A stretch of 64,000 nucleotides of DNA from Polyangia bacterium (lineage in GTDB: Bacteria; Myxococcota_A; Polyangia; Polyangiales; JAUICN01), in assembly GCA_030427835.1 (NCBI GenBank), contig JAUICN010000006.1, positions 62,001 to 126,000 on the forward strand. Reading direction: 5' to 3'. Shown piece by piece: positions 3,856-39,064 of the stretch. The notes below the pieces were generated by a model. The model had not been told where the DNA came from. It did not search any database and worked only from the letters and a program-made list of their open reading frames with translations. Position 1 is the stretch's first letter. The number at the start of each line of letters is the position of its first letter. A program made the translations under genes and the position numbers.

Positions 3856-3862
3856 GAAATCA

Positions 3863-6530: not shown

Positions 6531-6540
6531 ACACTAAACA

Positions 6541-7410
6541 ATGGCCCTAGGTCGTTTTCCAAATCACGTGCTGACCTTTGCAAGCGCACTGTCACTACTC
6601 GCCGTTTTTGGCGTGGGTTCAGCGAGTGTTCTCGCCCAGCAAGTCAATCCAGAAGGATCTACTCCGAAACAAGCGGCTGGTGTCCCATCGTCCCCTCCAG
6701 CCGCAGTCGAGCAGATGGACCAGGCCCGGGAGCTCTTCATGCGAGGCATTGAACTTGCCGATCAGGAGCAATGGCTGCGTGCCCTCGAGTCCTTTGAAGC
6801 TTCGTCAGCTCTGGTGCCGAGGGTCAGCACCCAGTTCAACATCGCCAACGCCCTGATCCATCTCGCGCGCTTTAAGTCCGCCGTGGATCTCCTGGAGCGG
6901 ATCAAATCCGAAAACACCCAGGACCTGCCCGCCATCGAGCAGGCCAATGCCCTGATTCAAGAAGCCTCGGCCAACCTAGCCACCGTGGCCATCGATATCC
7001 ATCCACCCCAGGCCGCAGCCACAGCTTTCATTGATGGAGTAGTGATTGAACCCGGCGATGCAGGTCAGCTCCACGAAACTGTGGACCCCGGCAGCCATCT
7101 GATACGGGTGGATGCCACAGGCTATCAAGGTTTTTCGCGGGGAATCACAGCCCATATTGGACAATACATCGTATTGCCAATCAACCTCCACCCCGACCTC
7201 AACTACCTCAGAGAGCAGCGCGAAAAAGAACAGCAGGAGAACCGAACCTCTCTCATGCGCAACCCCTGGTTCTGGACCGTTGCTGGCGTACTCGTCGCTG
7301 GCGTGGTGATCACGGTGGTCGCCACATCTTCCGATGACGGCGGAAGCTATGGGGGCGATACCGGTACCGTCTTGACTGGTTTGAGATCAAATCCCCTGGT
7401 GAGGTTTTAA
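6541..7410 (+). CDS. TPR/PEGA-domain envelope protein
   Basis: A 289-residue exported protein: signal peptide (about 1-32), TPR-like helices (QARELFMRGIELADQEQW and following, about 58-130), then a PEGA-like beta domain (ATAFIDGVVIEPGDAGQLHETVDPGSHLIRVDATGYQG split over about 160-200) and a C-terminal membrane helix (FWTVAGVLVAGVVITVVA, about 240-260) with a short Gly/Asp-rich tail. This architecture is common beside Hanks kinases in myxobacteria. It starts 10 bases after the kinase and its stop shares one base with the next start, so the three genes are translationally linked. Probably a scaffold or sensor linked to the kinase (inference). Confidence 0.8.
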   Translation: MALGRFPNHVLTFASALSLLAVFGVGSASVLAQQVNPEGSTPKQAAGVPSSPPAAVEQMDQARELFMRGIELADQEQWLRALESFEASSALVPRVSTQFNIANALIHLARFKSAVDLLERIKSENTQDLPAIEQANALIQEASANLATVAIDIHPPQAAATAFIDGVVIEPGDAGQLHETVDPGSHLIRVDATGYQGFSRGITAHIGQYIVLPINLHPDLNYLREQREKEQQENRTSLMRNPWFWTVAGVLVAGVVITVVATSSDDGGSYGGDTGTVLTGLRSNPLVRF

Positions 7411-9029
7411 TGTTTCGCAACGTACCAAGCCGGTTCCCATGGGCGCTGTTACTCCTGGCCCCGGTCCTATTGGGATCGTGCGCGTCCTCCATCACCCAGT
7501 TGATCGTGGTTGTTCGCACGGATTACACGGTCCCAAGCGAAGCCAATCAGTTGGTCGTGCGTGTGCATGACGAAAACGGCCTAGAGCAGAGCTCCCAGCA
7601 GTGGGCCCTGTCCGAGGCGGAAGAGCAGGGCGAAGTATTGCCCCTGTCCTTTGGGGTAGAACCTGCCGGCGGCGATGCAAACCGTACAGTCACGCTAAAC
7701 CTCACCCTCTCCCTAGATGATGCGGTCCTGGTTTCTCGCGAAGTGGTGGTGGGTTTTGTGGCAGGCAAACAGCTACTGCTTGAGGTCACTCTGCAACAAT
7801 CCTGCGCCGCCGTTTCTTGCGAAGGCGGAGATACCTGCGTGTCCGGCACGTGCACGAGCGCAGTGATCGATGCGACGACCTTACCTGAAGTGGACCCGGG
7901 AAATGAGTTTACGCCCAATCCCACCACGGGGGCCTGTGACGACGGGATTAAAAATGGCCAGGAAACCGACGCGGATTGCGGAGGCGGATCCTGTGGCACC
8001 TGCACGATCAATCAAATGTGCGGCGCCGGGTCGGATTGCGCCTCTGGTTTTTGTGACCATGGCACCTGCCAGGACAGTTGCGGTGACGGTGTTGTGAACG
8101 GCACGGAAACCGGCGTGGATTGTGGAGGTGGTGCCTGTGGCCCATGTGGGCAGGGCCTCGCGTGCACTCAATACACCGATTGCATTGCTGGAGTGTGTTC
8201 CGGTGGCGTGTGCGCAGAGACCTGCAGCGACGGAACCAAAAACGGGTACGAAACCGACGTGGATTGTGGTGGCCCCGGGTGCAGCGCTTGCGTGGAGGGT
8301 GAAGCCTGCCAGCAGCATGACGATTGTATCAGCACCCTGTGTGACAACAGTCTCTGCCGTTATCCGGAGAGTTGCCAGGATGCCAAGAACGCATTCACCG
8401 ACCCCAACAATGGCGTGTTTGCCATTAAGCCCGACCCCATGGGCACCACCTACAACGTGTATTGCGACATGACCACCGACGGTGGTGGTTGGACGCTCGT
8501 AAGCTCCACCAATGACGAACCCCCTATGGATCATGGAGGTGGGTACCACAGCGAGCTTTCCACACTGCTACCCACTGGCCGACACGAATCCATTTGGGAT
8601 GGCCTGCGGCCCCTGATTACTGCCAACAGCGACATTCGCTTTGCATGCAAAGGCAACGATACCGACATCCCGATGACCGTAGATTTATCTTTCTACAACA
8701 ACGGTTGGTACACGGAGCTCACAGCGAGCACAAACGAAGCCAGCGTTTGCTTTCAAGAGGACATGGGCAACGGTTACGACGGTGCCGTCGACCGCCGAAA
8801 CAACCTCACCAACACGATTAAGACAAGCGCCGACGAATGGGACGTGGGCTACCTAGAAGCGGAACCGGGCTGCAGCAGCGCGGCAGACTTCCTGATCGAT
8901 TTTGACGATGGCGGCACAGCCGGCACCAGTGATGACACGGACTGGGGTGAAGAAATCGGTGGCGACGTTTGTGGAACCAATACCGATTCCACAGACATGT
9001 CCTGGTTCATTTTCGTTCGTGAACCCTAA
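7410..9029 (+). CDS. Cys-repeat lipoprotein with one fibrinogen-like GGGW domain
   Basis: A 539-residue lipoprotein (lipobox LGSC, Cys24). Residues 25-170 form a beta-rich domain. From about 176 come three Cys-rich repeats, each with D-G-x-x-N-G-x-E-T-x-x-D-C-G-G followed by six further spaced cysteines. The C-terminal ~200 residues are a bacterial fibrinogen-like domain marked by YCDMTTDGGGWTLV (about 350), paired Cys, and FDDGG..D..DWGEE near the end. Smallest of the seven relatives in the window and the only one inside the kinase operon. Likely surface-exposed and carbohydrate- or protein-binding by analogy with fibrinogen-related lectins; binding is not shown by the sequence. Confidence 0.85.
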   Translation: MFRNVPSRFPWALLLLAPVLLGSCASSITQLIVVVRTDYTVPSEANQLVVRVHDENGLEQSSQQWALSEAEEQGEVLPLSFGVEPAGGDANRTVTLNLTLSLDDAVLVSREVVVGFVAGKQLLLEVTLQQSCAAVSCEGGDTCVSGTCTSAVIDATTLPEVDPGNEFTPNPTTGACDDGIKNGQETDADCGGGSCGTCTINQMCGAGSDCASGFCDHGTCQDSCGDGVVNGTETGVDCGGGACGPCGQGLACTQYTDCIAGVCSGGVCAETCSDGTKNGYETDVDCGGPGCSACVEGEACQQHDDCISTLCDNSLCRYPESCQDAKNAFTDPNNGVFAIKPDPMGTTYNVYCDMTTDGGGWTLVSSTNDEPPMDHGGGYHSELSTLLPTGRHESIWDGLRPLITANSDIRFACKGNDTDIPMTVDLSFYNNGWYTELTASTNEASVCFQEDMGNGYDGAVDRRNNLTNTIKTSADEWDVGYLEAEPGCSSAADFLIDFDDGGTAGTSDDTDWGEEIGGDVCGTNTDSTDMSWFIFVREP

Positions 9030-9079
9030 CCACCCATGAAAGAAACGGCGACGAACCCATGCTACTGCTCCCGCCACAT

Positions 9080-11845: not shown

Positions 11846-11930
11846 CAAAAAACAAGTGCCCGGTGAGAAAAATACATACTCTGTAACTTGCTTTCCTGCA
11901 GCCCTTTCGTGGAATGATGGCGTCAATCCC

Positions 11931-15110: not shown

Positions 15111-15358
15111 TTCGTTACCTCGTCAACATCTGTGTCGTAACAACCTCAGCCACACCACGCGTAGCTGGGGGAACCTGGAATTCCGACGCGGTCTAGGGAT
15201 AGAAAAAAAGCGACTCGGTCTCACATTTTTCCCGCAACAGGAATATCGCAAGACAATCGGGCGATCACCCAATGCCCCGCCCCAAAACTAGGACAAATGC
15301 CACTTTATATGGAACATACTGGGTGCACAGACCGTATTCACACCTGTCCACCTGAGTT

Positions 15359-18300
15359 ATGTCCATGAAATCCCATTTCCTCGTCGCCACAACGCTCATA
15401 CTTTTCACAGCTTCATGCAAATCTGACGGGCCACCCAGTCACAGTGGGTTGAATGTGGATGGGGGAGTGGGGGATGCAACCCTCCCCGCAAGTTGTTCTA
15501 ACGAAACCACCGACAACACCGAAACAGACATCGATTGCGGTGGAACCGTGTGCAGCCGTTGTACTGAGGGAAAACAATGCAGTGTAGGAAGCGACTGCGC
15601 GAGTAAGGTCTGCAAGGTCGGCAGGTGTACAGCACCAACTTGTAACGACAACGTCCAAAATCAGACCGAGAGTGACGACGACTGCGGGGGCGACGAATGC
15701 AACCCATGCGGAAATGGTCGTGACTGCAATGCCAATGACGATTGTATCTCGGGGTTTTGCAGCAGCACCGGAACATGTGGTGACTCTTGCCCAGATGGCG
15801 AGACGAACGGCCAGGAAACCGACCTGGACTGTGGAGGCCCAGGCTGCCCCGGCTGTGCTGATGGGAAGATGTGTTTAGGCAACTCGGACTGTGAAGACAT
15901 GGCCTGCAGTCCCGGAAATCTTTGTGTGGCTCACTGCACCAACAGTGCAAGGGATGTCAACGAAACGGATGTGGACTGTGGAGGCCCAGATTGCAGCCCA
16001 TGTGTTGATGGCGATGACTGTAGCCAGGCCAGCGACTGTGAAAGCAGCATCTGCAGCTCCGGGGTCTGTCAAGTGCCAGCTTGCAACGATGGCGTAAAGA
16101 ACGGAGACGAAACCGACACGGACTGCGGAGGTTCGTGCGGTGTTTGCCCTGATGGTGACACGTGCAGTGCCGCCTCCGATTGCGCAAGTCAGGTGTGTGA
16201 TATGGGCATGTGCGGCGATCCCGGGTGTACCGACAACGTCAAGAACGGAACTGAAACCGACGTGGATTGCGGCGGAACAGGCTGCGCTCCCTGTGTGGGT
16301 GGAGACACGTGCCTCACCGGAAGCGATTGCAACTCCACCGTATGCGATACGGGTACCTGCACGGTTGCCACCTGTTCGGACAGCATTCTCAACCAGGATG
16401 AATCGGACGTGGATTGCGGCGGTGTATGCAATGCCTGCGCCGCAACCAAGTCATGTAATACGGCGGTTGATTGTGAAAGCTTGGTGTGCACCGCAAACGT
16501 CTGCCAAGTCGCCCTGTGCAGTGACGGCGTCAAAAATAGCACTGAGACCGATGTGGACTGCGGTGGCACCTGCGCGGACTGCGTGGACGGAAAGATGTGC
16601 ATGGTCGCCGGAGATTGCCAAAACAACGACTGTGAAAACAACGTGTGTATCTCGTGCAGCGATGGCACAAAGAACGGAACTGAAACCGACGCCGATTGTG
16701 GTGGAAGTTGCGGCGGCTGCACGGACGGGGGCGCGTGCAGCATCAACGGCGACTGCCAGAGCGGCGATTGCGAAAGTAACGTGTGCATCTCATGCAGTGA
16801 CAGCACAAAGAATGGTAACGAAACGGATGTGGACTGTGGCGGAAGCTGCGGCGGTTGCTCCAACGGTAGTGATTGCTCGGTTCATGCCGACTGTGTCAGT
16901 GGTGTTTGCACCAGCAACGTGTGCGTCGCCCCCTCCTGCACCGACGGAATCCTGAACGGGGGCGAATCCGACGTCGATTGCGGCGGGCCAGAGTGCGACG
17001 CATGCGACACCGGAGAATACTGCCGATGGAAGTCCGACTGCGCGAGCTACCATTGCGAGAATCACGCTTGTGTGGTGCTCACGAATTACGAAACGTGCCT
17101 GCACTACCAAAGGGTGAATCCGAATGCCGTCAGCGGTGCCCAGTCGATCAAGCCCTACCTTGCTGGCACATCCCCACCCGTCCAGGCCTACTGCGACATG
17201 GAAACCGACGGCGGAGGGTGGACGCTGGTTAGCAAGAAAGTGAAATGGCCGAGCTATGGTGAACGAGCGAGCTACCACAGCGCCCTCTCCACATACGGGC
17301 CAACCAGCGGTTCTTCCATCGATGGTCTTTGGGGTACCATGCGTGGCATTACATCACCAATCTCAGGTTCTGCAGCGCGCAGTGATATCCGTTTCACGTG
17401 CTACAAAACAACAACCTCGTCCACAAACATCACAGATGTCCCAGATGTGGATCTCTCGTTCTACGACAATTACTGGTTCTGGTTCATCACATCTGACTAC
17501 AACAGTGCAAACATCACTCTTGTAAACATGAGGCCGGCCGATCGCGCCAACAACCTTACGGGTGAGTTTAAGTATTCCACTGAGCATTGGGCCAACTCAC
17601 CCAACCCATCAAACTACACGTTTGGTGGGCCGAGCATGGAAGTATCCCCGATGGAGCCGTACTTCTGGATCGATTTCGATGACAGGGGCGCCGGAAGTAG
17701 CTCCCTCGCCGACCGCAACGATGGTACCGACTGGGGTGGGGACATCTCCAACGAAGTTTGCGGCGACGCCTACACCAACTCCAACCAGTCTCCAATGTGG
17801 CATGTTTGGTATCGCGAGACCGAGGCCCACAATGACTGCAACGTGAACGGGGCAAAGAACAACTCCGAAACTGATGTGGATTGCGGCGGAGGAAACTGCC
17901 ACCGTTGCGAAGCCAGCAACGATTGTGTGGAGGACAATGATTGTATGTCCCTCAGCTGCGTATCAGGAGCATGCCAGACCACAATCTATGCAAGCTGCAA
18001 AGAAATACTGGAAGATCACCCTGCTACCCCAAGCGGTAGCTACGAGATCCAACCCGACCCTATGGGTTCAGCTTTCGCTGTGTACTGCGACATGGAAACC
18101 GATGGAGGGGGGTGGACAGCCGTCGCGTCTGCACAGGTTTTGGGTGATGACGCACAGGCCTACCAAGCAGACATTCGTCACATCCATGAAACGCCCCTTA
18201 GCTTTTTTGGCGGTGTTTGGGACGGTATGCGAGCCGTAATCTCGGCAAAGAGTGACATTCGTTTCGCATGTAAGACTTCTTTCGCAGAGGACAAGATGGG

Positions 18301-18646
18301 TGTCGACCTGTCTTTCTACGATGTGGATTGGTACCGGGAGATGACAACAGGCAACGACAACCAATCCTGCCTCGTTGATCCAGAGGGGCCGAACGGGGTT
18401 GCCCGTCGGAACAATCTCACTGGTGTGAGCCTCCCTATCAACGATGTTTGGGACAACACGGGAGGCGGCCCCAAGCTGGAGGCCACCTGCAACGATGTTT
18501 CAGGTTTTATGATCGATTTCGACGACGTCGGTTACGGAGGTACTCCCGATCCCACAGATTGGGGTCGGCAGGGTATCAACGTATTCTGTGGGGATTCAGC
18601 CATCGTCGAGCGTGCTCCCTTTTACGTTTTTGTACGCGAGCCTTAG
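15359..18646 (+). CDS. giant Cys-repeat lipoprotein with two GGGW domains
   Basis: A 1095-residue lipoprotein (TASC, Cys20). After a short Asp/Gly linker come eleven Cys-rich repeats of 35-45 residues (about 45-580), each with N-G-x-E-T-D-V-D-C-G-G or a variant and conserved S-D-C..G-x-C. A first fibrinogen-like domain follows (YCDMETDGGGW, about 610), then a twelfth repeat and a second such domain (same motif, about 907). Both domains end in D-F-D-D..D-W-G and a final W/F-x-V-R-E pattern typical of the family. First gene of the 15-33 kb array, with a 248-base upstream gap that should hold its promoter. Likely a long stalk carrying two terminal binding heads. Confidence 0.88.
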   Translation: MSMKSHFLVATTLILFTASCKSDGPPSHSGLNVDGGVGDATLPASCSNETTDNTETDIDCGGTVCSRCTEGKQCSVGSDCASKVCKVGRCTAPTCNDNVQNQTESDDDCGGDECNPCGNGRDCNANDDCISGFCSSTGTCGDSCPDGETNGQETDLDCGGPGCPGCADGKMCLGNSDCEDMACSPGNLCVAHCTNSARDVNETDVDCGGPDCSPCVDGDDCSQASDCESSICSSGVCQVPACNDGVKNGDETDTDCGGSCGVCPDGDTCSAASDCASQVCDMGMCGDPGCTDNVKNGTETDVDCGGTGCAPCVGGDTCLTGSDCNSTVCDTGTCTVATCSDSILNQDESDVDCGGVCNACAATKSCNTAVDCESLVCTANVCQVALCSDGVKNSTETDVDCGGTCADCVDGKMCMVAGDCQNNDCENNVCISCSDGTKNGTETDADCGGSCGGCTDGGACSINGDCQSGDCESNVCISCSDSTKNGNETDVDCGGSCGGCSNGSDCSVHADCVSGVCTSNVCVAPSCTDGILNGGESDVDCGGPECDACDTGEYCRWKSDCASYHCENHACVVLTNYETCLHYQRVNPNAVSGAQSIKPYLAGTSPPVQAYCDMETDGGGWTLVSKKVKWPSYGERASYHSALSTYGPTSGSSIDGLWGTMRGITSPISGSAARSDIRFTCYKTTTSSTNITDVPDVDLSFYDNYWFWFITSDYNSANITLVNMRPADRANNLTGEFKYSTEHWANSPNPSNYTFGGPSMEVSPMEPYFWIDFDDRGAGSSSLADRNDGTDWGGDISNEVCGDAYTNSNQSPMWHVWYRETEAHNDCNVNGAKNNSETDVDCGGGNCHRCEASNDCVEDNDCMSLSCVSGACQTTIYASCKEILEDHPATPSGSYEIQPDPMGSAFAVYCDMETDGGGWTAVASAQVLGDDAQAYQADIRHIHETPLSFFGGVWDGMRAVISAKSDIRFACKTSFAEDKMGVDLSFYDVDWYREMTTGNDNQSCLVDPEGPNGVARRNNLTGVSLPINDVWDNTGGGPKLEATCNDVSGFMIDFDDVGYGGTPDPTDWGRQGINVFCGDSAIVERAPFYVFVREP

Positions 18647-18695
18647 AATTTTAGGATCTAAACGAAAGAGACACGGCGACCGGGAGCGAAGTCAA

Positions 18696-20840: not shown

Positions 20841-21092
20841 GCCGACCGCGCGCTCCATCAGCGTGTAAAGACGCCGCCTACCCAACAGGGGAATACCCCC
20901 ATGTAGGGGCATGTGGGATCACTGAATGGCGACACCCACATTGGAACGTCATTTTATGACAAAAACGTGAGTTCTGCAGAAATTTGTGTCAGATCCGGAA
21001 GAAACTAGGACTATTCTTCGTAAGAAAGATGGTCCATTCCCGACAACAGAAAATGAATAGCACCATCCCGTTGGTCGTTAAAGGCGCATCCG
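20841..21092 (+). promoter_or_regulatory. duplicated intergenic region, copy A
   Basis: 252 bases between two array genes. It aligns along its whole length with 29495-29753, including CATGTAGGGG, GACACCCACATTGGA, TTTTATGAC, TGTGTCAGATC and TAGCACCATCCCGTTGG. A perfect palindrome GTCAT-TTT-ATGAC sits at 20948-20960; copy B has one change that would still allow a G-U pair. Conservation of a non-coding block in front of two paralogues suggests a shared promoter or RNA leader. No confident -35/-10 pair could be fixed. Confidence 0.6.
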
Positions 21093-24000
21093 ATGTACGC
21101 AAAGCTCCCGTTCCTATCCCTACTACTCGTCTCCATGGCAGCCTGCACCTCCAACGACCCAGGCACTTCCAACAATGGCACCAGCTTGGATGGTGGCACC
21201 CAGGATGCTGCGTCTGACACCAGCCTCCCCCCCGGGTGCACCAATGCCACCCAGGACGGGACGGAAACGGATGTGGACTGTGGCGGAAGCACATGCCCTG
21301 CCTGCGTCGAGACCCTTCGGTGCATCACGGGTGCCGATTGTGAGAGCACCGTGTGCCGGGTGGGAAAGTGTGCCGCCGCCACCTGCAACGACAACGTACT
21401 GAACCAGGACGAATCGGACTCAGACTGCGGTGGCACAACCTGCTCTGGCTGTGGCAACGGGCGCGCCTGTGGTGAACACAACGACTGCCTTTCCGGCTTC
21501 TGCAATGCCAGCGGTGCATGCGCCAATTCCTGCCCCGATGGTGAAGTCAACGGCTCCGAAACGGACGTGGACTGCGGCGGTAGTGGTTGCCCAGGCTGCG
21601 CCGACGGCAAGGCGTGTAGCATCGATAGTGATTGCGTAGACATGGCCTGCAGCCCCAGCGGTATCTGCGTGGCCCATTGCACAAGCATGTCGAAGGACTC
21701 CAACGAAACCGACGAGGACTGCGGCGGCCCTGATTGTGACCCGTGCCCCGACCTGGACGCCTGCCTCATCCCCAGCGATTGCCAAAGCGGGGTGTGCACT
21801 TCCAACATCTGCCAAGTCCCCACCTGCACAGACAGCGTGCACAACGGCACAGAGACAGACGTCGACTGCGGCGGCCCCTGCAGCCCCTGCGTGGACGGGC
21901 AGATGTGCAGCGCGGGAAGCGACTGCACCAGCATGGTCTGTGACATGGGCACCTGCGGCGCGGCGGGTTGCACCGACATGGTCAAAAACGGTACCGAGAC
22001 CGACATCGACTGCGGCGGCACAGGATGCTCACCATGTGACCCTGGCGACATGTGTTTGCTTCCATCGGATTGTACGTCCAGCAAGTGCACCTCCAACATT
22101 TGCGACGTGCCGACCTGTTCCGATGGTGTACTCAATCAAGACGAGTCAGATGTGGACTGCGGCGGTGTCTGCAACGCCTGCCCCGATTTGGACATGTGCA
22201 ACAACCCGAGCGACTGCGAAAGTGGTGTCTGCACCAGCAACACCTGCCAGGTTCCCACATGCACAGACAACGTTCACAACGGTAGTGAAACCGACATAGA
22301 CTGCGGCGGAACGTGCGACGGTTGCGGCAGCGGCTCGATGTGCACGGGCCCTTCAGATTGTGAGAGTGGGGTATGCACAGGAGGCGTCTGCCAAGCACCC
22401 ACGTGTATAGATGGGGTTTCCAATGGTCGCGAAACTGACGTGGACTGCGGTGGCCCTGATTGTAGTAGCTGCCTAGCGGGTCAGACATGCGGTTGGTCCA
22501 AGGACTGCGCCAGTGGTTCCTGCGCGGGCCACGTATGCGACCCGATGACGACATACCGATCCTGCCGCCAAGCCATGGAAATAGGCGGCCACACCACAAG
22601 CGGTACCTATTCCATTAAGCCCGACCCCGCGAGTTCGGCGGTGGACGTTTTTTGCGACATGGAAACGGATGGCGGTGGATGGACAACTGTCGCAAAAACG
22701 GTGCGGTGGGCGCCTGTAGACAGAGCTTGGCAATACTACTCAGGTCTAGACGTTTTTGATCCCACAGATGGTCCAACGGGCAGCGGTGTTTGGGGCGGTA
22801 TGCGAAACGTTATCCAGGACAAGGGAGATATCCGTTTTGCGTGCGTTCACTACGATTCAGCATTTGTTACGGGGTCCACTCTCACCCTATCTGACCTCGA
22901 TGTAGACTTCTCTGTCTATGACAATGACTGGTATCGGCGAATCACAAACTCAACAAGCGATTCAGGCAACGATCTGGTTGATATCGTCGGGAACAACCTC
23001 ACCCCTGCGCGCCGAAACAACGTAAACAACGTGTACAGGTGGCGCGGAAACACTTGGAACGCGTCTCCGCATTCCAGTGGTGGACCCAAAATAGAAGATA
23101 CAGCAGGCGATTCAAATGATTTCTACCTCGACTTTGACGATGTGGGCATTGGGGGTACCTACGATGGAACCGAATGGGGAGAACGTGACGGATACCAAGA
23201 GTGCATTGGGCTTGGCACAAACGGAACCCGATACCACGGCGCCTACTACATATTCGTACGAGAAAAGCCACTAGATATACTTTGCAATATCAACGGCGCG
23301 AAAGACATTTCAGAAACAGATGTGGATTGTGGTGGTGGTAACTGCCTTGGTTGCAAAGAAACCATGAACTGCATCCACAACGGAGACTGTCAATCCCTTA
23401 GTTGTGTGGGTGGAACCTGCGCGCAAACCAACTACCAGAGCTGCAAAGCTATCCACGACATGCAGCCCTGGGCGCCCACCGGCACATATGAAATACGCCC
23501 CGGCGGAACAGGCACAGGTAGAAGCGTGTACTGTGACATGGACACTGACGGTGGTGGTTGGACTGCTGTCGTGTCGGCGGCTGGGGGCGCGCCGGATGAT
23601 CTGGCAGTCACGTATCACCCAGGACTTGCGCATCTGGAAACGCCGACCGAAGTTCTCAGTCCATACAACAATGACATGGAGGGTTTCTGGAGCGGGATGA
23701 GATCTGCGATATCTGGAAACAGTGACATTCGTTTCGCATGTAGACGAGTCGGAGAGCCCTTCTCTGTTGACATGTCTTTCTACGATGTGGATTGGTACCG
23801 AGAGATCACTCAAGGCACAGACACGCAATCGTGCATGGTTGCGCCAAGTGTGAGAAGTGGAAATATCCCCGCCCGAAAGAACAACGTGACTGGGCAGATA
23901 TTGCCCCTTGGAGACACGTGGAACAACGCAAACTCCAGTACCGGCGGGGGTCCTAGTATGGAGTACAACTGCAGCGACCCCGTCGTATTCACAATTACCT

Positions 24001-24125
24001 TTGATGGCATACCAAACAGCACTACCTGGGGGAGAACTCGGAACATCGGAACCCGTTACCGCAGCTATTGTGTCGATTGGCTTGATTCAGGCGCCGACTT
24101 TTATGCTTTCGTAAGAGAACCCTAG
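21093..24125 (+). CDS. giant Cys-repeat lipoprotein with two GGGW domains
   Basis: A 1010-residue lipoprotein (MAAC, Cys18) with the shared post-anchor sequence T-S-N-D-P-G. Nine Cys repeats, a GGGW domain (about 520), a tenth repeat, and a second GGGW domain (about 812) that ends at the stop. The first repeat uses the same codons as the gene at 27191 (A-T-Q-D-G form), whereas those at 24131 and 29754 use another version. The next gene begins 5 bases after the stop, so 21093-29494 is probably one transcript. Likely surface stalk-and-head protein; ligand unknown. Confidence 0.88.
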   Translation: MYAKLPFLSLLLVSMAACTSNDPGTSNNGTSLDGGTQDAASDTSLPPGCTNATQDGTETDVDCGGSTCPACVETLRCITGADCESTVCRVGKCAAATCNDNVLNQDESDSDCGGTTCSGCGNGRACGEHNDCLSGFCNASGACANSCPDGEVNGSETDVDCGGSGCPGCADGKACSIDSDCVDMACSPSGICVAHCTSMSKDSNETDEDCGGPDCDPCPDLDACLIPSDCQSGVCTSNICQVPTCTDSVHNGTETDVDCGGPCSPCVDGQMCSAGSDCTSMVCDMGTCGAAGCTDMVKNGTETDIDCGGTGCSPCDPGDMCLLPSDCTSSKCTSNICDVPTCSDGVLNQDESDVDCGGVCNACPDLDMCNNPSDCESGVCTSNTCQVPTCTDNVHNGSETDIDCGGTCDGCGSGSMCTGPSDCESGVCTGGVCQAPTCIDGVSNGRETDVDCGGPDCSSCLAGQTCGWSKDCASGSCAGHVCDPMTTYRSCRQAMEIGGHTTSGTYSIKPDPASSAVDVFCDMETDGGGWTTVAKTVRWAPVDRAWQYYSGLDVFDPTDGPTGSGVWGGMRNVIQDKGDIRFACVHYDSAFVTGSTLTLSDLDVDFSVYDNDWYRRITNSTSDSGNDLVDIVGNNLTPARRNNVNNVYRWRGNTWNASPHSSGGPKIEDTAGDSNDFYLDFDDVGIGGTYDGTEWGERDGYQECIGLGTNGTRYHGAYYIFVREKPLDILCNINGAKDISETDVDCGGGNCLGCKETMNCIHNGDCQSLSCVGGTCAQTNYQSCKAIHDMQPWAPTGTYEIRPGGTGTGRSVYCDMDTDGGGWTAVVSAAGGAPDDLAVTYHPGLAHLETPTEVLSPYNNDMEGFWSGMRSAISGNSDIRFACRRVGEPFSVDMSFYDVDWYREITQGTDTQSCMVAPSVRSGNIPARKNNVTGQILPLGDTWNNANSSTGGGPSMEYNCSDPVVFTITFDGIPNSTTWGRTRNIGTRYRSYCVDWLDSGADFYAFVREP

Positions 24126-24130
24126 GACCA

Positions 24131-27100
24131 ATGAATATGCAGACATATCCAAAGTCTATCTTCCGAGTACTTGCTCTCTGCGCGCTGGCAGCCTGCACCT
24201 CGAACGACCCAGGCTCTTCCAACAATGGCACCAACTTGGATGGTGGCACCCAGGATGCTGCGTCTGACACCAGCCTCCCCCCCGGGTGCACCAACACCAC
24301 AAAGGATGGAACAGAGACAGACGTGGATTGCGGTGGAAGCACATGCCCCGCCTGCGTCGAGACCCTTCGGTGCATCACGGGTGCCGATTGTGAGAGCACG
24401 GTGTGCCGGGTGGGAAAGTGTGCCGCCGCCACCTGCAACGACAACGTACTGAACCAGGACGAATCGGACTCAGACTGCGGTGGCACAACCTGCTCTGGCT
24501 GTGGCAACGGGCGCGCCTGCGGTGGTCACACCGATTGCCTTTCCGGCTTCTGCAATGCCAGCGGCACCTGCGCGAACTCCTGCCCGGATGGCGAGGTCAA
24601 CGGCTCCGAAACCGACGTGGACTGCGGCGGTTCAGGATGTCCAGGCTGCGCCGATGGCAAGATGTGCGTGGAAGACAGCGATTGCGTAGACATCGCCTGC
24701 AGCCCCAGCGGTATCTGCGTGGCCCATTGCACAAGCATGTCGAAGGACTCCAACGAAACCGACGAGGACTGCGGCGGCCCTGATTGCGATCCGTGCCCGG
24801 ACCTGGACGCCTGCCTCGTCCCCAGCGACTGCCAAAGCGGGGTGTGCACTTCCAACATCTGCCAAGTCCCCACCTGTACAGACAGCGTTCACAACGGCAC
24901 CGAAACGGACGTCGACTGCGGCGGCCCCTGCAGCCCCTGCGTGGACGGGCAGATGTGCAGCGCGGGAAGCGATTGCACCTCCATGGTCTGTGACATGGGC
25001 ACCTGCGGCGCAGCCGGTTGCACCGACATGGTCAAAAACGGTACCGAGACCGACATCGACTGCGGTGGCGCAGGATGTTCGCCATGTGACCCTGGCCAGA
25101 TGTGTGCGGGGCCGAGCGATTGTACATCCAACAAATGCACTTCTGGTCTCTGCGATGTTCCAACCTGCTCAGATGGGGTAATCAATCAAGACGAGTCGGA
25201 TGTGGACTGCGGCGGCGTTTGCAGTGGCTGCGTTGATGGCTTGATGTGTAGCGGTCCTTCTGATTGTGTCAGCGGTGTATGTACCTCCAACATCTGCCAG
25301 GTACCGACATGCACAGACAACGTTCACAACGGCAGCGAAACCGACATAGACTGCGGCGGAACCTGCGATGGTTGCGGCAGCGGCTTGATGTGCACGGGCC
25401 CTTCAGATTGTGAAAGCGGGGTATGCACGGCTGGAGTCTGCCAAGCTCCCACGTGTATGGATGGGGTTTCCAATGGTGGCGAAACTGACGTGGACTGCGG
25501 TGGCCCTGATTGCAACACCTGCGCAGCAGGACAAGGGTGTAACTGGTCCAAAGACTGCACAAGCGGCTCCTGTGCAGGACACATCTGCGAAACGATCACA
25601 AACTATCGGACATGCCGACAGGCCATGGAACTTGGCGGTCACACCACAAGCGGCACATACACCATCAAGCCCGGCTCCGGTCCATCTGAAAACGTCTTCT
25701 GTGATATGGAAACCGACGGAGGTGGATGGACGTTGGTCGCAAGGAGTTTTCGACACGGTCCAGTAGATAAGGCTTCCGCGTACTACTCTGGACTCGCCAC
25801 ACTCCATGTAACTTCGATCGTCAATACAGGGAGACCCGTATGGAGCCGACTGCGAGATGTTATCCACGACAAAGGTGACATTCGCTTTGCGTGTACGTAC
25901 TACGCCACCGCAACAACCCACCCGGCAAACCTAACATTATCTGACCTTAAAGTGGACCTGTCGCTCTACGACAACGACTGGTACCGAAAGATCACCAACT
26001 CCACCAGCGATTCTGGAAATGATCTCGTCGATATTGTTGGCAACGGCTACACGCCAGACCGTAGAGACAACATCAATGACGTGTACCGTTGGCGTGGAAA
26101 CTCCTGGAACGCTTCGCCACACTTCAGTGACGGGCCTACGATGGAAACATCAGCCAATGCAGTGAACGACTTCTTCCTAGACTTCGACGACGTTGGCATT
26201 GGCGGCACCTACGATGGGACCGAATGGGGAAGCCGTGGTAGTGGTTTCTCGGACTGTGGTCCCTACACCACAGACATTAGCACGAGCGTATATGGCGTAT
26301 ACTACATTTTCGTTCGGGAAAAGCCCTTAGACGTCCTATGCAACAATGACGGCATAAAGGACACCACAGAAACCGATATCGACTGTGGTGGTGGCAACTG
26401 TCTGGCCTGCGCAGAGGGGATGACTTGTACCCAAAAGGAAGACTGCCAGTCACTAAGCTGCGTCAATGGCACATGTGCTCGGACCACATACCGTAGCTGC
26501 AAAGAAATCCATGACAACGTGCCAGGGGCTCCGAGCAGCACATACGAAATCCATCCTACCGGAATGGGTGCAGGCCAAAGTGTCTATTGCGACATGGAAA
26601 CCGATGGTGGTGGATGGACGCTGGTGGGATCCCACGTTGGTCACCCTCAAGGAGACTACGCTACGGCCCACCATGCGGGCTTAAAACACATCGAAACACC
26701 CACAGTTATTCTGCCGCTCAGATTTGTTGGGTTCAAACCTGGCGGTCTATGGGATGGCATGCGTAGTGTGATTCCTGGACAGAGTGACATTCGTTTTGCA
26801 TGTCGAGAGTCCGCCCACAAAAAGGAAATGACAGTCGATCTCTCGTTCTACGACGTTGGTTGGTACAACACCATGACAACGGGAACGGACGCCGATTCGT
26901 GCATGACGGATCCAGAAGGAACCAATGGAGTCGCGCGACGCAACAACGTGACTGGAATGAGCCTACCTGTCACTGATACATGGAACGCGACAGGAGGCGG
27001 CCCTCAATTGGAGAGCACCTGCAACAGTACCACCCAGCTGCTCATAGATTTTGATGATCAGGGCGCTGGAGGAAGTGCGGATGCCACTGACTGGGGTGAG

Positions 27101-27178
27101 GATGGGAGCGGCAATACGTGCGGGACAGACCGATACAACTACGATGCATCCCATTTTGTCTTCGTTCGAGAGCCATAG
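24131..27178 (+). CDS. giant Cys-repeat lipoprotein with two GGGW domains
   Basis: A 1015-residue lipoprotein (LAAC, Cys22). Order: nine repeats, GGGW domain (about 524), a tenth repeat, GGGW domain (about 819). The repeat region is almost colinear with the preceding gene and shares stretches over 100 bases long that are identical or nearly so, while the two GGGW heads differ clearly, especially around the central W-Y-R region. That pattern fits a conserved stalk with diversified heads. An alternative start lies two codons downstream. Twelve bases separate it from the next gene. Confidence 0.88.
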   Translation: MNMQTYPKSIFRVLALCALAACTSNDPGSSNNGTNLDGGTQDAASDTSLPPGCTNTTKDGTETDVDCGGSTCPACVETLRCITGADCESTVCRVGKCAAATCNDNVLNQDESDSDCGGTTCSGCGNGRACGGHTDCLSGFCNASGTCANSCPDGEVNGSETDVDCGGSGCPGCADGKMCVEDSDCVDIACSPSGICVAHCTSMSKDSNETDEDCGGPDCDPCPDLDACLVPSDCQSGVCTSNICQVPTCTDSVHNGTETDVDCGGPCSPCVDGQMCSAGSDCTSMVCDMGTCGAAGCTDMVKNGTETDIDCGGAGCSPCDPGQMCAGPSDCTSNKCTSGLCDVPTCSDGVINQDESDVDCGGVCSGCVDGLMCSGPSDCVSGVCTSNICQVPTCTDNVHNGSETDIDCGGTCDGCGSGLMCTGPSDCESGVCTAGVCQAPTCMDGVSNGGETDVDCGGPDCNTCAAGQGCNWSKDCTSGSCAGHICETITNYRTCRQAMELGGHTTSGTYTIKPGSGPSENVFCDMETDGGGWTLVARSFRHGPVDKASAYYSGLATLHVTSIVNTGRPVWSRLRDVIHDKGDIRFACTYYATATTHPANLTLSDLKVDLSLYDNDWYRKITNSTSDSGNDLVDIVGNGYTPDRRDNINDVYRWRGNSWNASPHFSDGPTMETSANAVNDFFLDFDDVGIGGTYDGTEWGSRGSGFSDCGPYTTDISTSVYGVYYIFVREKPLDVLCNNDGIKDTTETDIDCGGGNCLACAEGMTCTQKEDCQSLSCVNGTCARTTYRSCKEIHDNVPGAPSSTYEIHPTGMGAGQSVYCDMETDGGGWTLVGSHVGHPQGDYATAHHAGLKHIETPTVILPLRFVGFKPGGLWDGMRSVIPGQSDIRFACRESAHKKEMTVDLSFYDVGWYNTMTTGTDADSCMTDPEGTNGVARRNNVTGMSLPVTDTWNATGGGPQLESTCNSTTQLLIDFDDQGAGGSADATDWGEDGSGNTCGTDRYNYDASHFVFVREP

Positions 27179-27190
27179 GGGAGAGATTCA

Positions 27191-29494
27191 ATGTATCGAC
27201 AACTCCTACTCGCCATCCTAGTTCCATGGATATTCGTCGCCTGCACCTCCAACGACCCAGGCTCTTCCACCAATGGCACCAACTTGGATGGTGGCACCCA
27301 GGATGCTGCGTCTGACACCAGCCTCCCCCCCGGGTGCACCAACGCCACCCAGGACGGGACGGAAACGGATGTGGACTGTGGCGGAAGCACATGCCCTGCC
27401 TGCGCCGAGACCCTTCGGTGCATCACGGGTGCCGATTGTGAGAGCACGGTGTGCCGGGTGGGAAAGTGTGCCGCCGCCACCTGCAACGACAACGTACTGA
27501 ACCAGGACGAATCGGACTCAGACTGCGGTGGCACAACCTGCTCTGGCTGTGGCAACGGTCGCAACTGCGGAGAGCACTCCGACTGTCTATCTGGTCTCTG
27601 TAGCGCCAGCGGCACCTGCGCGAACTCCTGCCCCGATGGTGAAGTCAACGGCTCTGAAACCGACGTCGACTGTGGCGGTAGCGGATGCATGGGGTGCGCC
27701 GATGGAAAGATGTGCGTGGAGGACAGTGACTGCGCGGACAACGCCTGTAGCCCCAGCGGCATTTGTGTCGCCCATTGCACCAGTCTCACCAAGGACTCCA
27801 ATGAGACAGACGTCGACTGCGGGGGCCCTGACTGCGATCCGTGCCCAGATCTGGACGCCTGCCTCATCCCCAGCGACTGCCAAAGCGGTGTATGCACTGC
27901 AAACGTCTGCCAAGTCCCCACCTGCACAGACAACGTGCACAACGGCACGGAAACGGATGTGGACTGTGGCGGCCCCTGCAGCCCCTGCGTGGACGGGCAG
28001 ATGTGCAGCGCGGGAAGCGACTGCACCAGTATGGTTTGTGACATGGGCACCTGCGGCGCAGCCGGTTGCACTGACAACATGAAGAACGGCACAGAGACGG
28101 ACGTGGACTGTGGCGGCTCAGGATGCTCGCCATGTGACCCTGGCGACATGTGCCTTATTGGAAGTGACTGTACCTCCACCATTTGCATCGGAAATCAGTG
28201 CACAACTCCAAGCTGCACGGACGGTATCAAAAACGGAGACGAGACAGGTCTAGATTGTGGTGGCTCATGTGGCCCCTGTCCTGATGGCGTTGGCTGCAAT
28301 CTAGCCCAGGATTGCCAAAGTGGTGTGTGCACAGGCAACCTCTGCCAGGTCCCCACTTGCACTGACGGGGTAGCAAACGGATCAGAGTCTGACTTAGATT
28401 GCGGAGGCTCCTGCGAGGCCTGTGCGGATGGTTTGATGTGCAGCGGCCCCTCGGATTGTGACAGTGGGGTCTGCGCATCAAATATCTGCCAGATCCCAAC
28501 GTGTACCGACGGTATCACGAATGGAGACGAGTCCGATATGGACTGCGGAGGTGTAGATTGTGCGGGTTGTCCAGGTGGCAGCGATTGCCGCTGGCGATCG
28601 GATTGCGAAAAAAACGTGTGCGAGAATCACATCTGCACCGCGATTACCTACTTTCAGTCGTGCATGCACCAACAACTCGCGGGAGGTTCCACCATAAGTG
28701 GCACCTACACCATTCAACCCGATCCAATGGGTACCGCACGGCAGGTATTCTGCGACATGGACAATGATGGCGGAGGGTGGACCCTAGTTTCAAAAGCCGT
28801 GGACTACCCCGTCGACGCAGAGGCCGGTAGCTACCGTACTTCCATAGCAAGCTACAACCACACCGGTGGGAGTTCGTGGAACATTTGGGATGGTATGCGC
28901 CCGCTAGCTACTTACGGCGACATTCGATTCACTTGCTACGAATCCACCAGTAGCAACGTGAGCATCGCTGATCCCTTGGACGTAGACCTTTCGTTCTATA
29001 CCTGTGGTTGGTACGGAACCATGACGTCCAACACCAACAGTGCCTTGGTGAATATCAAGGACCCCGGAAAGTGCTCCCGAAAGAATAACCTCACGGGTGC
29101 AACACGCTATTCCTTCGATTCGTGGAACAACACGCCAAACAGCTCAGGTGCGCCACGCATGGAAAATTTTGTCAACGACAACGCTTTCAAACTCGATTTC
29201 GATGACAGTGGGGTCGGAGGGACCGTAGCGGACGGCACGGACTGGGGATACGAAGGTGGCGTAGGGCGCATCTGCGGAAGCGCCTACACCTACACCGCTG
29301 CAGATCCCATGTGGTACATTTATGTTCGGGAAAACAGCGTTCCCAACGTGTGCAACGCCAATGGCGCAAAGGACAACTCTGAGACGGATGTGGACTGTGG
29401 CGGTGGCAACTGCCCACTCTGTGCACAGGGGAACGCTTGCCTCGTGGACTCCGACTGCACCTCTCTGAACTGCACCAACGACACCTGCGACTAG
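27191..29494 (+). CDS. Cys-repeat lipoprotein, one GGGW domain and a trailing repeat
   Basis: A 767-residue lipoprotein (FVAC, Cys18). Nine repeats, one GGGW domain (about 520), and a tenth repeat ending at the stop with NDTCD. Repeats 1-6 match the genes at 21093 and 24131 at DNA level, but the head and the truncated tail match the gene at 18696 (same D-N-S-E-T-D-V-D-C-G-G-G-N-C-P-L-C end). It is therefore a chimera of two array members. RBS-like GGGGAGAG lies about 8 bases upstream of the ATG. Confidence 0.88.
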   Translation: MYRQLLLAILVPWIFVACTSNDPGSSTNGTNLDGGTQDAASDTSLPPGCTNATQDGTETDVDCGGSTCPACAETLRCITGADCESTVCRVGKCAAATCNDNVLNQDESDSDCGGTTCSGCGNGRNCGEHSDCLSGLCSASGTCANSCPDGEVNGSETDVDCGGSGCMGCADGKMCVEDSDCADNACSPSGICVAHCTSLTKDSNETDVDCGGPDCDPCPDLDACLIPSDCQSGVCTANVCQVPTCTDNVHNGTETDVDCGGPCSPCVDGQMCSAGSDCTSMVCDMGTCGAAGCTDNMKNGTETDVDCGGSGCSPCDPGDMCLIGSDCTSTICIGNQCTTPSCTDGIKNGDETGLDCGGSCGPCPDGVGCNLAQDCQSGVCTGNLCQVPTCTDGVANGSESDLDCGGSCEACADGLMCSGPSDCDSGVCASNICQIPTCTDGITNGDESDMDCGGVDCAGCPGGSDCRWRSDCEKNVCENHICTAITYFQSCMHQQLAGGSTISGTYTIQPDPMGTARQVFCDMDNDGGGWTLVSKAVDYPVDAEAGSYRTSIASYNHTGGSSWNIWDGMRPLATYGDIRFTCYESTSSNVSIADPLDVDLSFYTCGWYGTMTSNTNSALVNIKDPGKCSRKNNLTGATRYSFDSWNNTPNSSGAPRMENFVNDNAFKLDFDDSGVGGTVADGTDWGYEGGVGRICGSAYTYTAADPMWYIYVRENSVPNVCNANGAKDNSETDVDCGGGNCPLCAQGNACLVDSDCTSLNCTNDTCD

Positions 29495-29753
29495 GCGTAA
29501 GCAGACGGCGCGTCCCATCAGCGGGCAATGGACTTCGCATGTCCAACGGGGGTCTACAGCATGTAGGGGTATGTGGTTCTACTCATTAGTGACACCCACA
29601 TTGGAGTGTCGTTTTATGACGAAAACGCAAGATACGTGACAATCTGTGTCAGATCTGGAAGAAAAGACGCTCAGTTCACGTAAGAAAAATGGGCCACTTG
29701 CAGGAAACAGAAAACAACTAGCACCATCCCGTTGGCCGTTAGAGGCGTATCCG
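29495..29753 (+). promoter_or_regulatory. duplicated intergenic region, copy B
   Basis: 259 bases homologous to 20841-21092 and in the same position: after a gene with a truncated tail and before a gene whose signal peptide begins M-Y-x-K-L-P-F. The palindrome-like element GTCGT-TTT-ATGAC is at 29608-29620. The downstream gene must start at ATG 29754, because in-frame codons from 29646 belong to this conserved non-coding block. Confidence 0.6.
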
Positions 29754-32700
29754 ATGTACACCAAGCTCCCGTTCCGAACCCTACTACTCGTCTTCGTCGC
29801 CGCCTGTTCGTCTAACGATCCAGGCTCGTCCAACAACGGTACGAACTTGGATGGTGGCATGCAAAGTCAGGACGCTGCACCTGACAGCACTGCGACCTTG
29901 CCTCCCGGGTGCACCAACACCACAAAGGATGGAACAGAGACAGACGTGGATTGCGGTGGAAGCACATGCCCCGCCTGCGTCGAGACCCTTCGGTGCATCA
30001 CAGGGTCGGACTGTGAGAGCACGGTGTGCCGAGTGGGCAAGTGCGCCGCCGCCACCTGCAACGACAACGTACTGAACCAGGACGAATCGGACTCAGACTG
30101 CGGTGGCACAACCTGCTCAGGATGTGGAAACGGTCGCGACTGCGGGGAGCACTCCGATTGCCTTTCCGGCTTCTGCAATGCCAGCGGCACCTGCGCGAAC
30201 TCCTGCCCAGACGGTGAGGTCAATGGCTCCGAGACCGACGTCGACTGTGGAGGTGACGGTTGCCCTGCCTGCGCCGACGGCAAGGCGTGTAGCAGCGACA
30301 GCGACTGCGTAGACATGGCCTGCAGCCCGGCAGGTATGTGCGTTGCGCACTGCACCAGCATGTCGACGGACTCCAACGAAACGGACGAGGACTGCGGCGG
30401 CCCCGACTGTGATGCCTGTGCCGATGGCAAAGCGTGCGTGGTTTCAGGCGACTGCAGCAGCGGTGTATGTACTAGTAACATCTGCCAAGTTTCTAGCTGT
30501 ACGGATGGCGCGCGCAACGGACTGGAAACGGATGTGGATTGCGGCGGTCCTTGTAGCCCCTGCGGAGACGGCAAGATGTGCAACCTTTCCAGTGAATGCA
30601 CAAGCCTCGTATGTGACAACGGAATGTGTGGTGCCGCAGGTTGTACTGACGGTATCTTGAACGGCACCGAAACCGATCTAGATTGTGGAGGCGGATCCTG
30701 CACCGGATGCATGGACGGCCAAATGTGCAATCACGGGAGTCATTGCCTCAGCGGAAACTGCAAGAGCAACGTGTGTGTCTCCGAGTGCAACGACGGCATC
30801 AACAATGGTGATGAGACGGACGTGGACTGCGGTGGTTCCTGCAGCCCCTGTGATGACGGTGACACGTGCAGCGCGGGAACGGACTGCCGCAACAAGATTT
30901 GCAATGGAGGTCAATGCAGTGCCGCCACCTGTGCCGACAACGTGCTCAATGGCACAGAAACCGACGTCGACTGTGGAGGCACGATTTGCGTAGATTGCGC
31001 AGATGGCCAGATGTGCGCCCAAGCAAACGATTGCGTAAGTCAAAACTGCAATAGCAACACATGCGTTTCCGAATGCACCGACAACATTCACAACGGTGAC
31101 GAAACCGATGTGGATTGCGGCGGCTCTTGCGGTCGCTGCGTGGACGGCCAGATGTGCAATCTCGCCACCGAATGCATGAGCATGGTGTGCATGTCAGGCG
31201 TCTGCAGCATGCCTGCTTGCGTGGATGGTGTGCTCAACGGGAGCGAAACCGATGTGGACTGCGGTGGACCCGACTGCGCGCCCTGTCTGCCCGGCGACAT
31301 GTGCCTTGTGGGGAGCGACTGCAACTCCACCGTGTGCAACGCAGGCGTCTGCACCACACCCACTTGCTCAGATGGGCTTAAGAACCAGGACGAAACCGAT
31401 GTGGACTGCGGCGGAACCACCTGCGTCGCCTGCTCACCCGGCGATGCCTGTTTAGGGCCCTCTGATTGCGATAGCGCTGTATGTACTGGAAATCTTTGCC
31501 AAGCACCCACATGTACCGACGGGGTAAAGAACGCGACAGAAAGTGACGTGGACTGCGGTGGCCCCTGCGACCCGTGCGCCGATGGACTTGCTTGCACCAA
31601 CGCAGGTGAATGTGAGAGCGGTGTGTGCACTGCAAACATCTGCCAGGCGCCCACGTGTACGGACGGAGTGCTCAATGGTACAGAACGAAACGCCGATTGT
31701 GGCGGCCTCGACTGCACGGGATGTGCGTTCGGGAAAGCCTGCCGGTGGGCCCAGGACTGTGCATCCCATTTCTGTGCAGATCATCTTTGCAACGTTGCGA
31801 CGTCGAGGTCCTGCCGCAATATCCTCGACCACAACCCAGGAATACCAAGTGGTACGTACACCATATTGGATGGTCCATATAGTCTGCCTTTCGACCACTA
31901 TTGTGACATGGTGACCGACGGCGGAGGTTGGACACTGGTCGCGAAATCCACCGATCATCCTCTCAAGGACGATCAAGCTGTCACCCACGATGGTCTTGCG
32001 GTTCATGATCCATCCGTAGGGAGTTCAAACAGGGGCATCTGGGGCAGGGCCTACCAAGGGTACTATGCGGATCAAACAGATATCCGATTCGCCTGCTACA
32101 AATCAACGTCTTCCGCAACAACACAAAACACACCCTTTGATGTCGACATGTCGTTTTATGAGAACCGGTGGTACGACGCGATTTCAAGCTACGACGACTT
32201 GAACAACGATCTGACAACCTATCCGATTGCTTCGCCAGGCGTTCCAGCACGGAAAAATAACGTGTCAGGGCTAACTCTTCCTCTCGGTAATACTTGGAAC
32301 AGCGGCTCGAGCACTACAGGAGGTCCAATTGGGGAAGATACCGCTGCAGATCTAAACGACTTCAAGATCGACTTCGACGATCGTGGAATGAATGGAAACG
32401 ATAGAGACGGCACCGATTGGGGTGAAGACGATGGGGTTGCGGTGTGTGGGGACGCGTATACAAGTCCTTTGGATCATCCTTCCTGGTACATCTTCGTTCG
32501 TGAACGGGGTGCGGTCCTCCCCGCGCCGAGCGAAGACAGCTTTTGTGACGTCAACGGGATGCTCGATGGTAGTGAAACCGGTACCGATTGTGGTGGAGGC
32601 AATTGTCCGTTGTGCGTCTCTGGTACAACCTGCATTGCAGACGAAGATTGCGAGTCCCTCAACTGCACAAGTGGCACCTGCGGTATGCCAGCGTTTGGTA

Positions 32701-33404
32701 GCTGCAAAGAAATACTGGACCACTACCATGTGGCACCCTCGGGGACCTACGATCTCGATCCAGGTGCCCTAGGCGGGTCGTACCGGGTCTATTGTGAAAT
32801 GGACAGGGACGGGGGCGGGTGGACCCTTGTGGCATCCGTTTCAGGAACTGCGCCGCAGGATCAGGCGGGTGGCTATCACACCGGACTCATGGATCGGTTC
32901 GCACCTTCCCCCGCAACCGTCCCCCACTCCACGTCAGTGTGGTCAGGCATGCGGGCTGCGATCCCGGGCAACAGTGACATCCGGTTCGCGTGTCAATCGG
33001 ACGCGACAACACTGGGTTACCACAACCATGTAGATCTGGCTTTCTACGACGTAGATTGGTACCGCACCATCACCACGGGAACGGATGCCCAATCCTGCAT
33101 GGTAGATCCGCTGGGTCCCGGAGGTCTGGCGCCAGGCAGAAGAAACATTTGGTACTCTACGGCCCGTAAAACGCCGGGTGATCAATGGGATTTCTCGCCG
33201 TTCACGAACGGTGGACCCACCCTGGAAGCTACCTGCGGAGACACCACTTCGTTCATGATTGACTACGACCACCAAGGGTACTCAAATCCAGTACGAAACT
33301 ACCCATACCCCCATGAAAATGTCTGGGGTACTTCGGGCGGCAATAGTTACTGTTCAGATATTCCAGCGATCACCAACGGCGCCTACTACATCTTCGTGAG
33401 GTAA
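29754..33404 (+). CDS. largest Cys-repeat lipoprotein, two GGGW domains
   Basis: A 1216-residue lipoprotein (VAAC, Cys18), the longest array member. Thirteen Cys repeats precede the first GGGW domain (YCDMVTDGGGW, about 716); a fourteenth repeat precedes the second (YCEMDRDGGGW, about 1013). Signal peptide and upstream region resemble the gene at 21093, repeat 1 has the codons of the gene at 24131, and repeats 7-11 have no close partner, so the stalk has expanded. The last domain ends VR at the stop, slightly shorter than the usual VREP. Last gene of the array. Confidence 0.87.
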   Translation: MYTKLPFRTLLLVFVAACSSNDPGSSNNGTNLDGGMQSQDAAPDSTATLPPGCTNTTKDGTETDVDCGGSTCPACVETLRCITGSDCESTVCRVGKCAAATCNDNVLNQDESDSDCGGTTCSGCGNGRDCGEHSDCLSGFCNASGTCANSCPDGEVNGSETDVDCGGDGCPACADGKACSSDSDCVDMACSPAGMCVAHCTSMSTDSNETDEDCGGPDCDACADGKACVVSGDCSSGVCTSNICQVSSCTDGARNGLETDVDCGGPCSPCGDGKMCNLSSECTSLVCDNGMCGAAGCTDGILNGTETDLDCGGGSCTGCMDGQMCNHGSHCLSGNCKSNVCVSECNDGINNGDETDVDCGGSCSPCDDGDTCSAGTDCRNKICNGGQCSAATCADNVLNGTETDVDCGGTICVDCADGQMCAQANDCVSQNCNSNTCVSECTDNIHNGDETDVDCGGSCGRCVDGQMCNLATECMSMVCMSGVCSMPACVDGVLNGSETDVDCGGPDCAPCLPGDMCLVGSDCNSTVCNAGVCTTPTCSDGLKNQDETDVDCGGTTCVACSPGDACLGPSDCDSAVCTGNLCQAPTCTDGVKNATESDVDCGGPCDPCADGLACTNAGECESGVCTANICQAPTCTDGVLNGTERNADCGGLDCTGCAFGKACRWAQDCASHFCADHLCNVATSRSCRNILDHNPGIPSGTYTILDGPYSLPFDHYCDMVTDGGGWTLVAKSTDHPLKDDQAVTHDGLAVHDPSVGSSNRGIWGRAYQGYYADQTDIRFACYKSTSSATTQNTPFDVDMSFYENRWYDAISSYDDLNNDLTTYPIASPGVPARKNNVSGLTLPLGNTWNSGSSTTGGPIGEDTAADLNDFKIDFDDRGMNGNDRDGTDWGEDDGVAVCGDAYTSPLDHPSWYIFVRERGAVLPAPSEDSFCDVNGMLDGSETGTDCGGGNCPLCVSGTTCIADEDCESLNCTSGTCGMPAFGSCKEILDHYHVAPSGTYDLDPGALGGSYRVYCEMDRDGGGWTLVASVSGTAPQDQAGGYHTGLMDRFAPSPATVPHSTSVWSGMRAAIPGNSDIRFACQSDATTLGYHNHVDLAFYDVDWYRTITTGTDAQSCMVDPLGPGGLAPGRRNIWYSTARKTPGDQWDFSPFTNGGPTLEATCGDTTSFMIDYDHQGYSNPVRNYPYPHENVWGTSGGNSYCSDIPAITNGAYYIFVR

Positions 33405-33517
33405 CCCCCAACATACGCGAGACCCCAAAAAGACCATCGTCAGCTCACATTGCTCTAAAATCTTTGGTTCTGTCCGGTTCTGGGCCCCGTCTCCGTCCAT
33501 ATTGCGTTGTGACGGCC

Positions 33518-39054: not shown

Positions 39055-39064
39055 GATTTGCTGC

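Follow-up and report, generated by a model that had tools for sequence, protein, structure and literature searches.

Do bacteria diversify the tips of their adhesins by recombination, as Bdellovibrio fibres and the TraA protein suggest? The question is raised by a locus in a Polyangia bacterium, a myxobacterial relative with a small genome (order Polyangiales; assembly GCA_030427835.1). The window analyzed here is a stretch of 64,000 nucleotides of contig JAUICN010000006.1 (positions 62,001 to 126,000 of the forward strand). Between window positions 7410 and 33404 it contains seven open reading frames (ORFs; g1-g7) encoding lipoproteins that combine Cys-rich repeats with fibrinogen-like GGGW heads. 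We put the probability at roughly 55% that this array encodes adhesins or lectins on the surface of the outer membrane, a lineage-specific repertoire in which a shared stalk carries exchangeable tips. The reading is based on the architecture, the fold of the head, and analogy with TraA and with the mosaic adhesive trimer (MAT) fibres of Bdellovibrio. The features of the locus, in window coordinates, are as follows.

7410..9029, plus strand: g1, lipoprotein; N-terminal region, 3 Cys repeats (7935-8357), 1 GGGW head (8370-9026).
15359..18646, plus strand: g2, lipoprotein; 11 repeats (15494-17071), head 1 (17093-17821), inter-head repeat (17837-17977), head 2 (17993-18643).
18696..20840, plus strand: g3, lipoprotein; 8 repeats (18837-19982), head (20001-20675), terminal repeat (20703-20834), no second head.
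20838..21098, plus strand: intergenic region before g4, 77% identical to 29498-29759; duplicated promoter-side block.
21093..24125, plus strand: g4, lipoprotein; 9 repeats (21237-22538), head 1 (22560-23264), inter-head repeat (23289-23420), head 2 (23439-24122).
24131..27178, plus strand: g5, lipoprotein; 9 repeats (24287-25588), head 1 (25604-26320), inter-head repeat (26339-26476), head 2 (26495-27175).
27191..29494, plus strand: g6, mosaic gene; g4/g5-type anchor and repeats 1-5 (to ~28072), g3-type head (28658-29335), terminal repeat (29351-29488).
29498..29759, plus strand: intergenic region before g7, homologous to the region before g4.
29754..33404, plus strand: g7, lipoprotein; 13 repeats (29910-31790), head 1 (31809-32504), inter-head repeat (32550-32681), head 2 (32700-33401).

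A profile built from the repeat units detected 3, 12, 9, 10, 10, 10, and 14 copies in g1-g7 (68 in total) at 40-60 bits each, and a head profile detected 11 GGGW heads at 255-292 bits each; at these scores neither can be due to chance. All seven proteins have a lipobox after the signal peptide (LGSC, TASC, LFSC, MAAC, LAAC, FVAC, and VAAC). A preliminary description of this DNA had listed seven lipid-anchored genes with 68 repeat units in 3-14 copies, one or two GGGW heads per gene, and six genes side by side over 18 kb. The counts and the layout hold (g2-g7 are contiguous from 15359 to 33404, 18.0 kb), and the repeat length, given there as about 40 residues, is corrected to 46-49. The likely starts of g3 and g7 are 18696 and 29754, rather than the first GTG of each ORF. 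Reading of the sequences placed a head (...FVREP) or a repeat at each C-terminus; no hydrophobic/Arg tail, i.e., no MYXO-CTERM sorting tail, was seen in g1-g7.

The history of the array is recorded mainly in the contrast between stalk base and heads. Among g4-g7 the stalk base is 78-92% identical at the nucleotide level, with finite synonymous divergence (dS 0.33-1.24), whereas the heads are 49-65% identical, with saturated dS and nonsynonymous divergence (dN) of 0.25-0.61. Between g4 and g5, dS rises from 0.33 in repeats 1-5 to 0.80 in repeats 6-9 and is saturated in the heads. This gradient excludes a simple whole-gene duplication, and can be explained by homogenization of the 5′ part or by replacement of the 3′ part. 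The promoter-side DNA and repeats 1-5 are homogenized between paralogues, with identity then dropping into old heads that are under purifying selection, a pattern first described here. The clearest case, also new, is g6. It is 78-98% identical to g4/g5 up to residue 294, the end of repeat 5, after which identity falls abruptly to ~50-69%; in the initial part of the head and in the tail repeat it is closest to g3. As a mosaic gene it joins a stalk base of g4/g5 type to a head and tail of g3 type, and the head data reject the grouping (g4,g5,g6,g7) given by the stalk (approximately unbiased (AU) test, p=0.034).

Duplication of larger units also contributed. The intergenic DNA before g4 and that before g7 are 77% identical over 268 bp, and g3 and g6 both end on an "inter-head" repeat, with homologous regions downstream and no detectable remnant of a second head in either gene. 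These similarities point to duplication of a block consisting of a one-head and a two-head gene, (g3,g4) giving rise to (g6,g7). Independent decay of g3 and g6 by separate truncations was considered and ruled out by the common terminal repeat, the homologous downstream DNA, and the lack of a head remnant. First-position and second-position heads form largely separate clades in the tree, which suggests that two-head genes are older than the array.

The head is a conserved domain of ~220 residues with a C-terminal signature of its own. The NCBIfam model for bacterial fibrinogen-like proteins with the YCDxxxxGGGW motif (GGGWT_bact, NF040941) scores above its curated cut-off (30 bits) in 7/7 window genes, at 43-121 bits, with the same motif in the same position; this model spans just 46 residues of the ~220-residue unit. 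Pfam Fibrinogen_C (PF00147) is also above cut-off in all seven, with the best stretch covering only profile positions ~2-63 of ~221, and its match is confined to the first ~50-60 residues of the head. Sixty-five heads taken from many bacteria can be aligned along all ~220 residues and share 14 invariant positions, mostly Cys, Gly, Trp, Arg, and Asp. Fibrinogen-related lectins bind glycans in a Ca2+-dependent manner. A conserved acidic, Asp/Glu-rich segment in the 65 heads (EGEDxC...VDFDDRG...DGTDWGEDD) is probably a Ca2+ site.

An AlphaFold2 model of head 2 of g2 (predicted local distance difference test score, pLDDT, 94.7) was compared with the PDB using Foldseek. The best matches were human intelectin-1, Xenopus XEEL, fibrinogen, angiopoietin, and ficolins, with probability 1.0 and expect values (E) from 3e-6 up; template modeling (TM) scores were mostly 0.3-0.44, at a root-mean-square deviation of ~10 Å. 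The fibrinogen-like character assigned to the heads in the preliminary description is supported by these fold matches as well as by the NF040941 scores. A profile search of PDB sequences returned XEEL first, over the N-terminal ~50 residues only. The part in common with the eukaryotic fibrinogen-related domains and intelectins (ficolins, XEEL, ITLN1) is the N-terminal subdomain SCKEI...GxYxIxP...VYCDMxTDGGGWTLV; those lectins are oligomerized by collagen or coiled coils, whereas the array proteins are carried on a bacterial lipoprotein stalk. We take the head to be a probable bacterial branch of the fibrinogen/intelectin fold, one whose C-terminal half is distinct. A literature search on the GGGW domain returned nothing functional. 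Phage proteins annotated with fibrinogen domains matched the head model in BFVD. Proteins from cyanophages and other phages fit the head fold better than the solved eukaryotic lectins do (the highest TM, 0.58, is that of a Synechococcus phage protein), a hint of a shared bacterial/phage branch of this fold.

The repeat unit contains eight invariant Cys residues, presumably forming four disulfides, and has the consensus C-x-D-G-x-x-N-G-x-E-T-D-x-D-C-G-G-x-x-C-x-x-C-x-x-G-x-x-C-x(5)-D-C-x-S-x-x-C-x(4)-C. A match to a well-studied family, named in the preliminary description as a finding that would refute it, was not obtained: the repeat had no match in NCBIfam, none in the PDB at E<=5, and in Pfam only one match at chance level (E 0.26). 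It is present in 122 of 184 genomes of the same order (E<=1e-10), two thirds of those sampled, yet lacks a family model. A full-length protein model built with 12 sequences has a mean pLDDT of 58.5 and low confidence in the stalk, which is too uncertain for interpretation; it places the same short strand/helix pattern in every repeat, also with low confidence, and gives no beta-helix pattern. Elsewhere in the genome (3.32 Mb assembly, 98% complete) an eighth gene of this type, with 9 full repeats and 3 heads, was found on another contig (C7). A protein on a further contig (C23; locus L022, 6136-8463, minus strand) has this repeat in three copies, lacks a head, and ends in a MYXO-CTERM-like tail; here the repeat appears to be reused with a different anchor. 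No other occurrence of the repeat was detected in this genome at E<=0.001.

According to the reading we favor, an N-terminal lipid anchor (lipobox without Asp at +2) and a short S/N/D/G-rich tether would hold a stalk of 46-49-residue repeats, which displays one or two C-terminal fibrinogen/intelectin-like heads of ~220 residues each. The targets of the heads may be glycans or proteins of other cells, of prey, or of a matrix. The array would have grown by tandem and block duplication, (g3,g4) to (g6,g7) and g4 to g5. Later homogenization would have acted on the 5′ part (promoter region, anchor, and stalk base) while the heads were kept or swapped as cassettes, so that a single delivery platform came to carry many tips. 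A comparable arrangement is known from the Bdellovibrio MAT fibres, where Bd1334 and Bd2133 are 75% identical in the fibre and have unrelated tips (PMC10769870). Those paralogues likewise combine near-identical fibres with exchanged tips; they are trimeric beta-helices with unrelated tip folds, whereas the array has diverged tips of one fold on a Cys-rich stalk.

We count as support the presence in the same genome of further anchored repeat-stalk proteins with GGGW-like heads. Contig C2 (L152) encodes two lipoproteins (1151-4075 and 4268-7231) with long stalks of TSP3-like (DSDGVPDGCD) repeats, a LamG-like region, and a C-terminal GGGW-like head, and contig C9 (L153; 3293-7156, minus strand) encodes a lipoprotein of the same composition; the TSP3-like and LamG-like names were assigned by reading the sequence. 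These proteins appear to be a second stalk type with the same head class, the anchor-stalk-head plan being built from different parts.

Several results weigh against a repertoire of surface adhesins. No transport partner for surface exposure was identified. Stalk rigidity is assumed in a region where the full-length model has low confidence. The global TM score of the head to any solved lectin is low (0.40-0.44), and the C-terminal ~170 residues gave no sequence alignment to eukaryotic lectins in the profile search of PDB sequences, so that specificity cannot be transferred from them; the binding face could differ entirely from that of the solved lectins. A g3+g6 grouping is not rejected when only the stalk is considered (AU p=0.24). 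Positive selection on the heads for tip diversity was considered and found no support (dN/dS is low and dS saturated). Given the purifying selection on the heads, the history looks more like old tips being kept or exchanged than like rapid diversification into new ones. A stronger version, in which the locus is an active tip-exchange system, with near-identical promoter, anchor, and stalk-base DNA as the recombination platform and gene conversion among array members repeatedly joining different heads to one stalk, is tentative, and we doubt it more than we credit it. If true, it would diversify the binding targets (prey, kin, or phage-facing surfaces). A tandem repertoire with a mosaic stalk/tip history, built on an unmodeled repeat, is worth follow-up. 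A single genome here supplies eleven natural variants of the head, all on one type of stalk, a compact set for studying binding and tip recombination.

The best-surviving alternative is a structural role, in which the proteins tether the cell's own exopolysaccharide or a fruiting-body/biofilm matrix and the duplications provide dosage or redundancy. Genes of surface-polysaccharide type, two GT2 glycosyltransferases and a methyltransferase, lie a few kb downstream of the array (35550-39760), and the purifying selection on the heads would fit such a role. The glycosyltransferases are on the opposite strand and outside the array, however, and paralogous heads are only ~42-67% identical in amino acid sequence, a divergence far beyond the needs of dosage. 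We consider this role unlikely.

Somewhat less likely still is a function in self or kin recognition, with heads binding each other or self-glycans between sister cells and the divergence of the paralogues setting partner identity. The model is Myxococcus TraA, a surface protein whose Cys-rich repeats carry a variable lectin-like (PA14) domain and which works by binding homotypically (PMC3325183, PMC6626042). A variable tip on a Cys-rich stalk is the plan in both, but the parts differ: TraA combines PA14 with TIGR04201 repeats and a MYXO-CTERM tail at one locus, whereas the array proteins have an N-terminal lipid anchor and form a multi-gene array. The Pfam scan found no PA14 domain in g1-g7. 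The identity of the Cys repeat with the TIGR04201 repeat was ruled out, since the NCBIfam scan gave no match to it at E<=0.1 and the genome search with that model reached none of g1-g7. A further argument against this function is the presence of many paralogues in a single genome instead of a single polymorphic locus.

The distribution in relatives bears on how the array arose. The repeat stalk and the head occur together in one ORF in other records, mostly from Myxococcota, as single genes: in Sandaracinus sp. NAT131 (L047), a Polyangia bacterium (L045), Lujinxingia vulgaris (L058/L063), and records L044, L057, L065, and L083. They have up to two heads, with repeats between, and no array was present within flanks of up to 10 kb on either side. 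Among the matches listed, no other cluster of more than two neighboring genes was found in the 57, 184 (order), and 379 (phylum) genomes sampled; the number of candidates scored per genome was capped in these searches, and an absence is therefore not to be taken as complete. A full head (E<=1e-30) was detected in 7 of the 184 genomes of the order, with 1-2 per genome elsewhere vs 14 full-length heads here, the most in the order among the matches listed; NF040941 matches at 18 places in this genome, which is smaller than those of most relatives listed, in an order that includes genomes of 10-16 Mb. Single scattered genes without an array, the other finding named beforehand as adverse, are therefore what relatives carry as far as the array is concerned, and the architecture itself is not new and recurs in Myxococcota. 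Of the stalk-and-lectin repertoire proposed earlier, the modular anchor, stalk, and fibrinogen-like head stand; given the single genes in relatives, the array is a lineage-specific expansion of a recurring architecture rather than a multi-gene system conserved among them. That it is a neutral one, a common Myxococcota surface-protein architecture duplicated locally by chance with the function of the single gene, would agree with the single genes in Sandaracinus and other Myxococcota, the widespread repeat (122/184), and an array in one sampled genome only among the matches listed, yet it is the least probable alternative, since all seven ORFs are intact and the heads constrained despite saturated dS, which indicates long-kept copies, and a 3.3 Mb genome holds more full-length heads than any other found in the order.

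Among the neighboring genes, those separating g1 from the six-gene block (9059-15110) encode two paralogous FG-GAP_2 (PF14312) propeller lipoproteins, 9059-11845 and 11829-15110, the second with a long ASADASADASAD low-complexity linker; both lack the Cys repeat and the GGGW head. A short ORF right after g7 (33464-33739) begins like an extracytoplasmic function (ECF) sigma factor (SLIEAYRKYFPVIVGKCARMLSDTGTAEEMA) in a frame that is not continued, and is possibly a broken gene or an assembly error. Directly upstream of g1 (4743-7410) are genes for a Ser/Thr protein kinase and then a tetratricopeptide repeat (TPR)-type protein.

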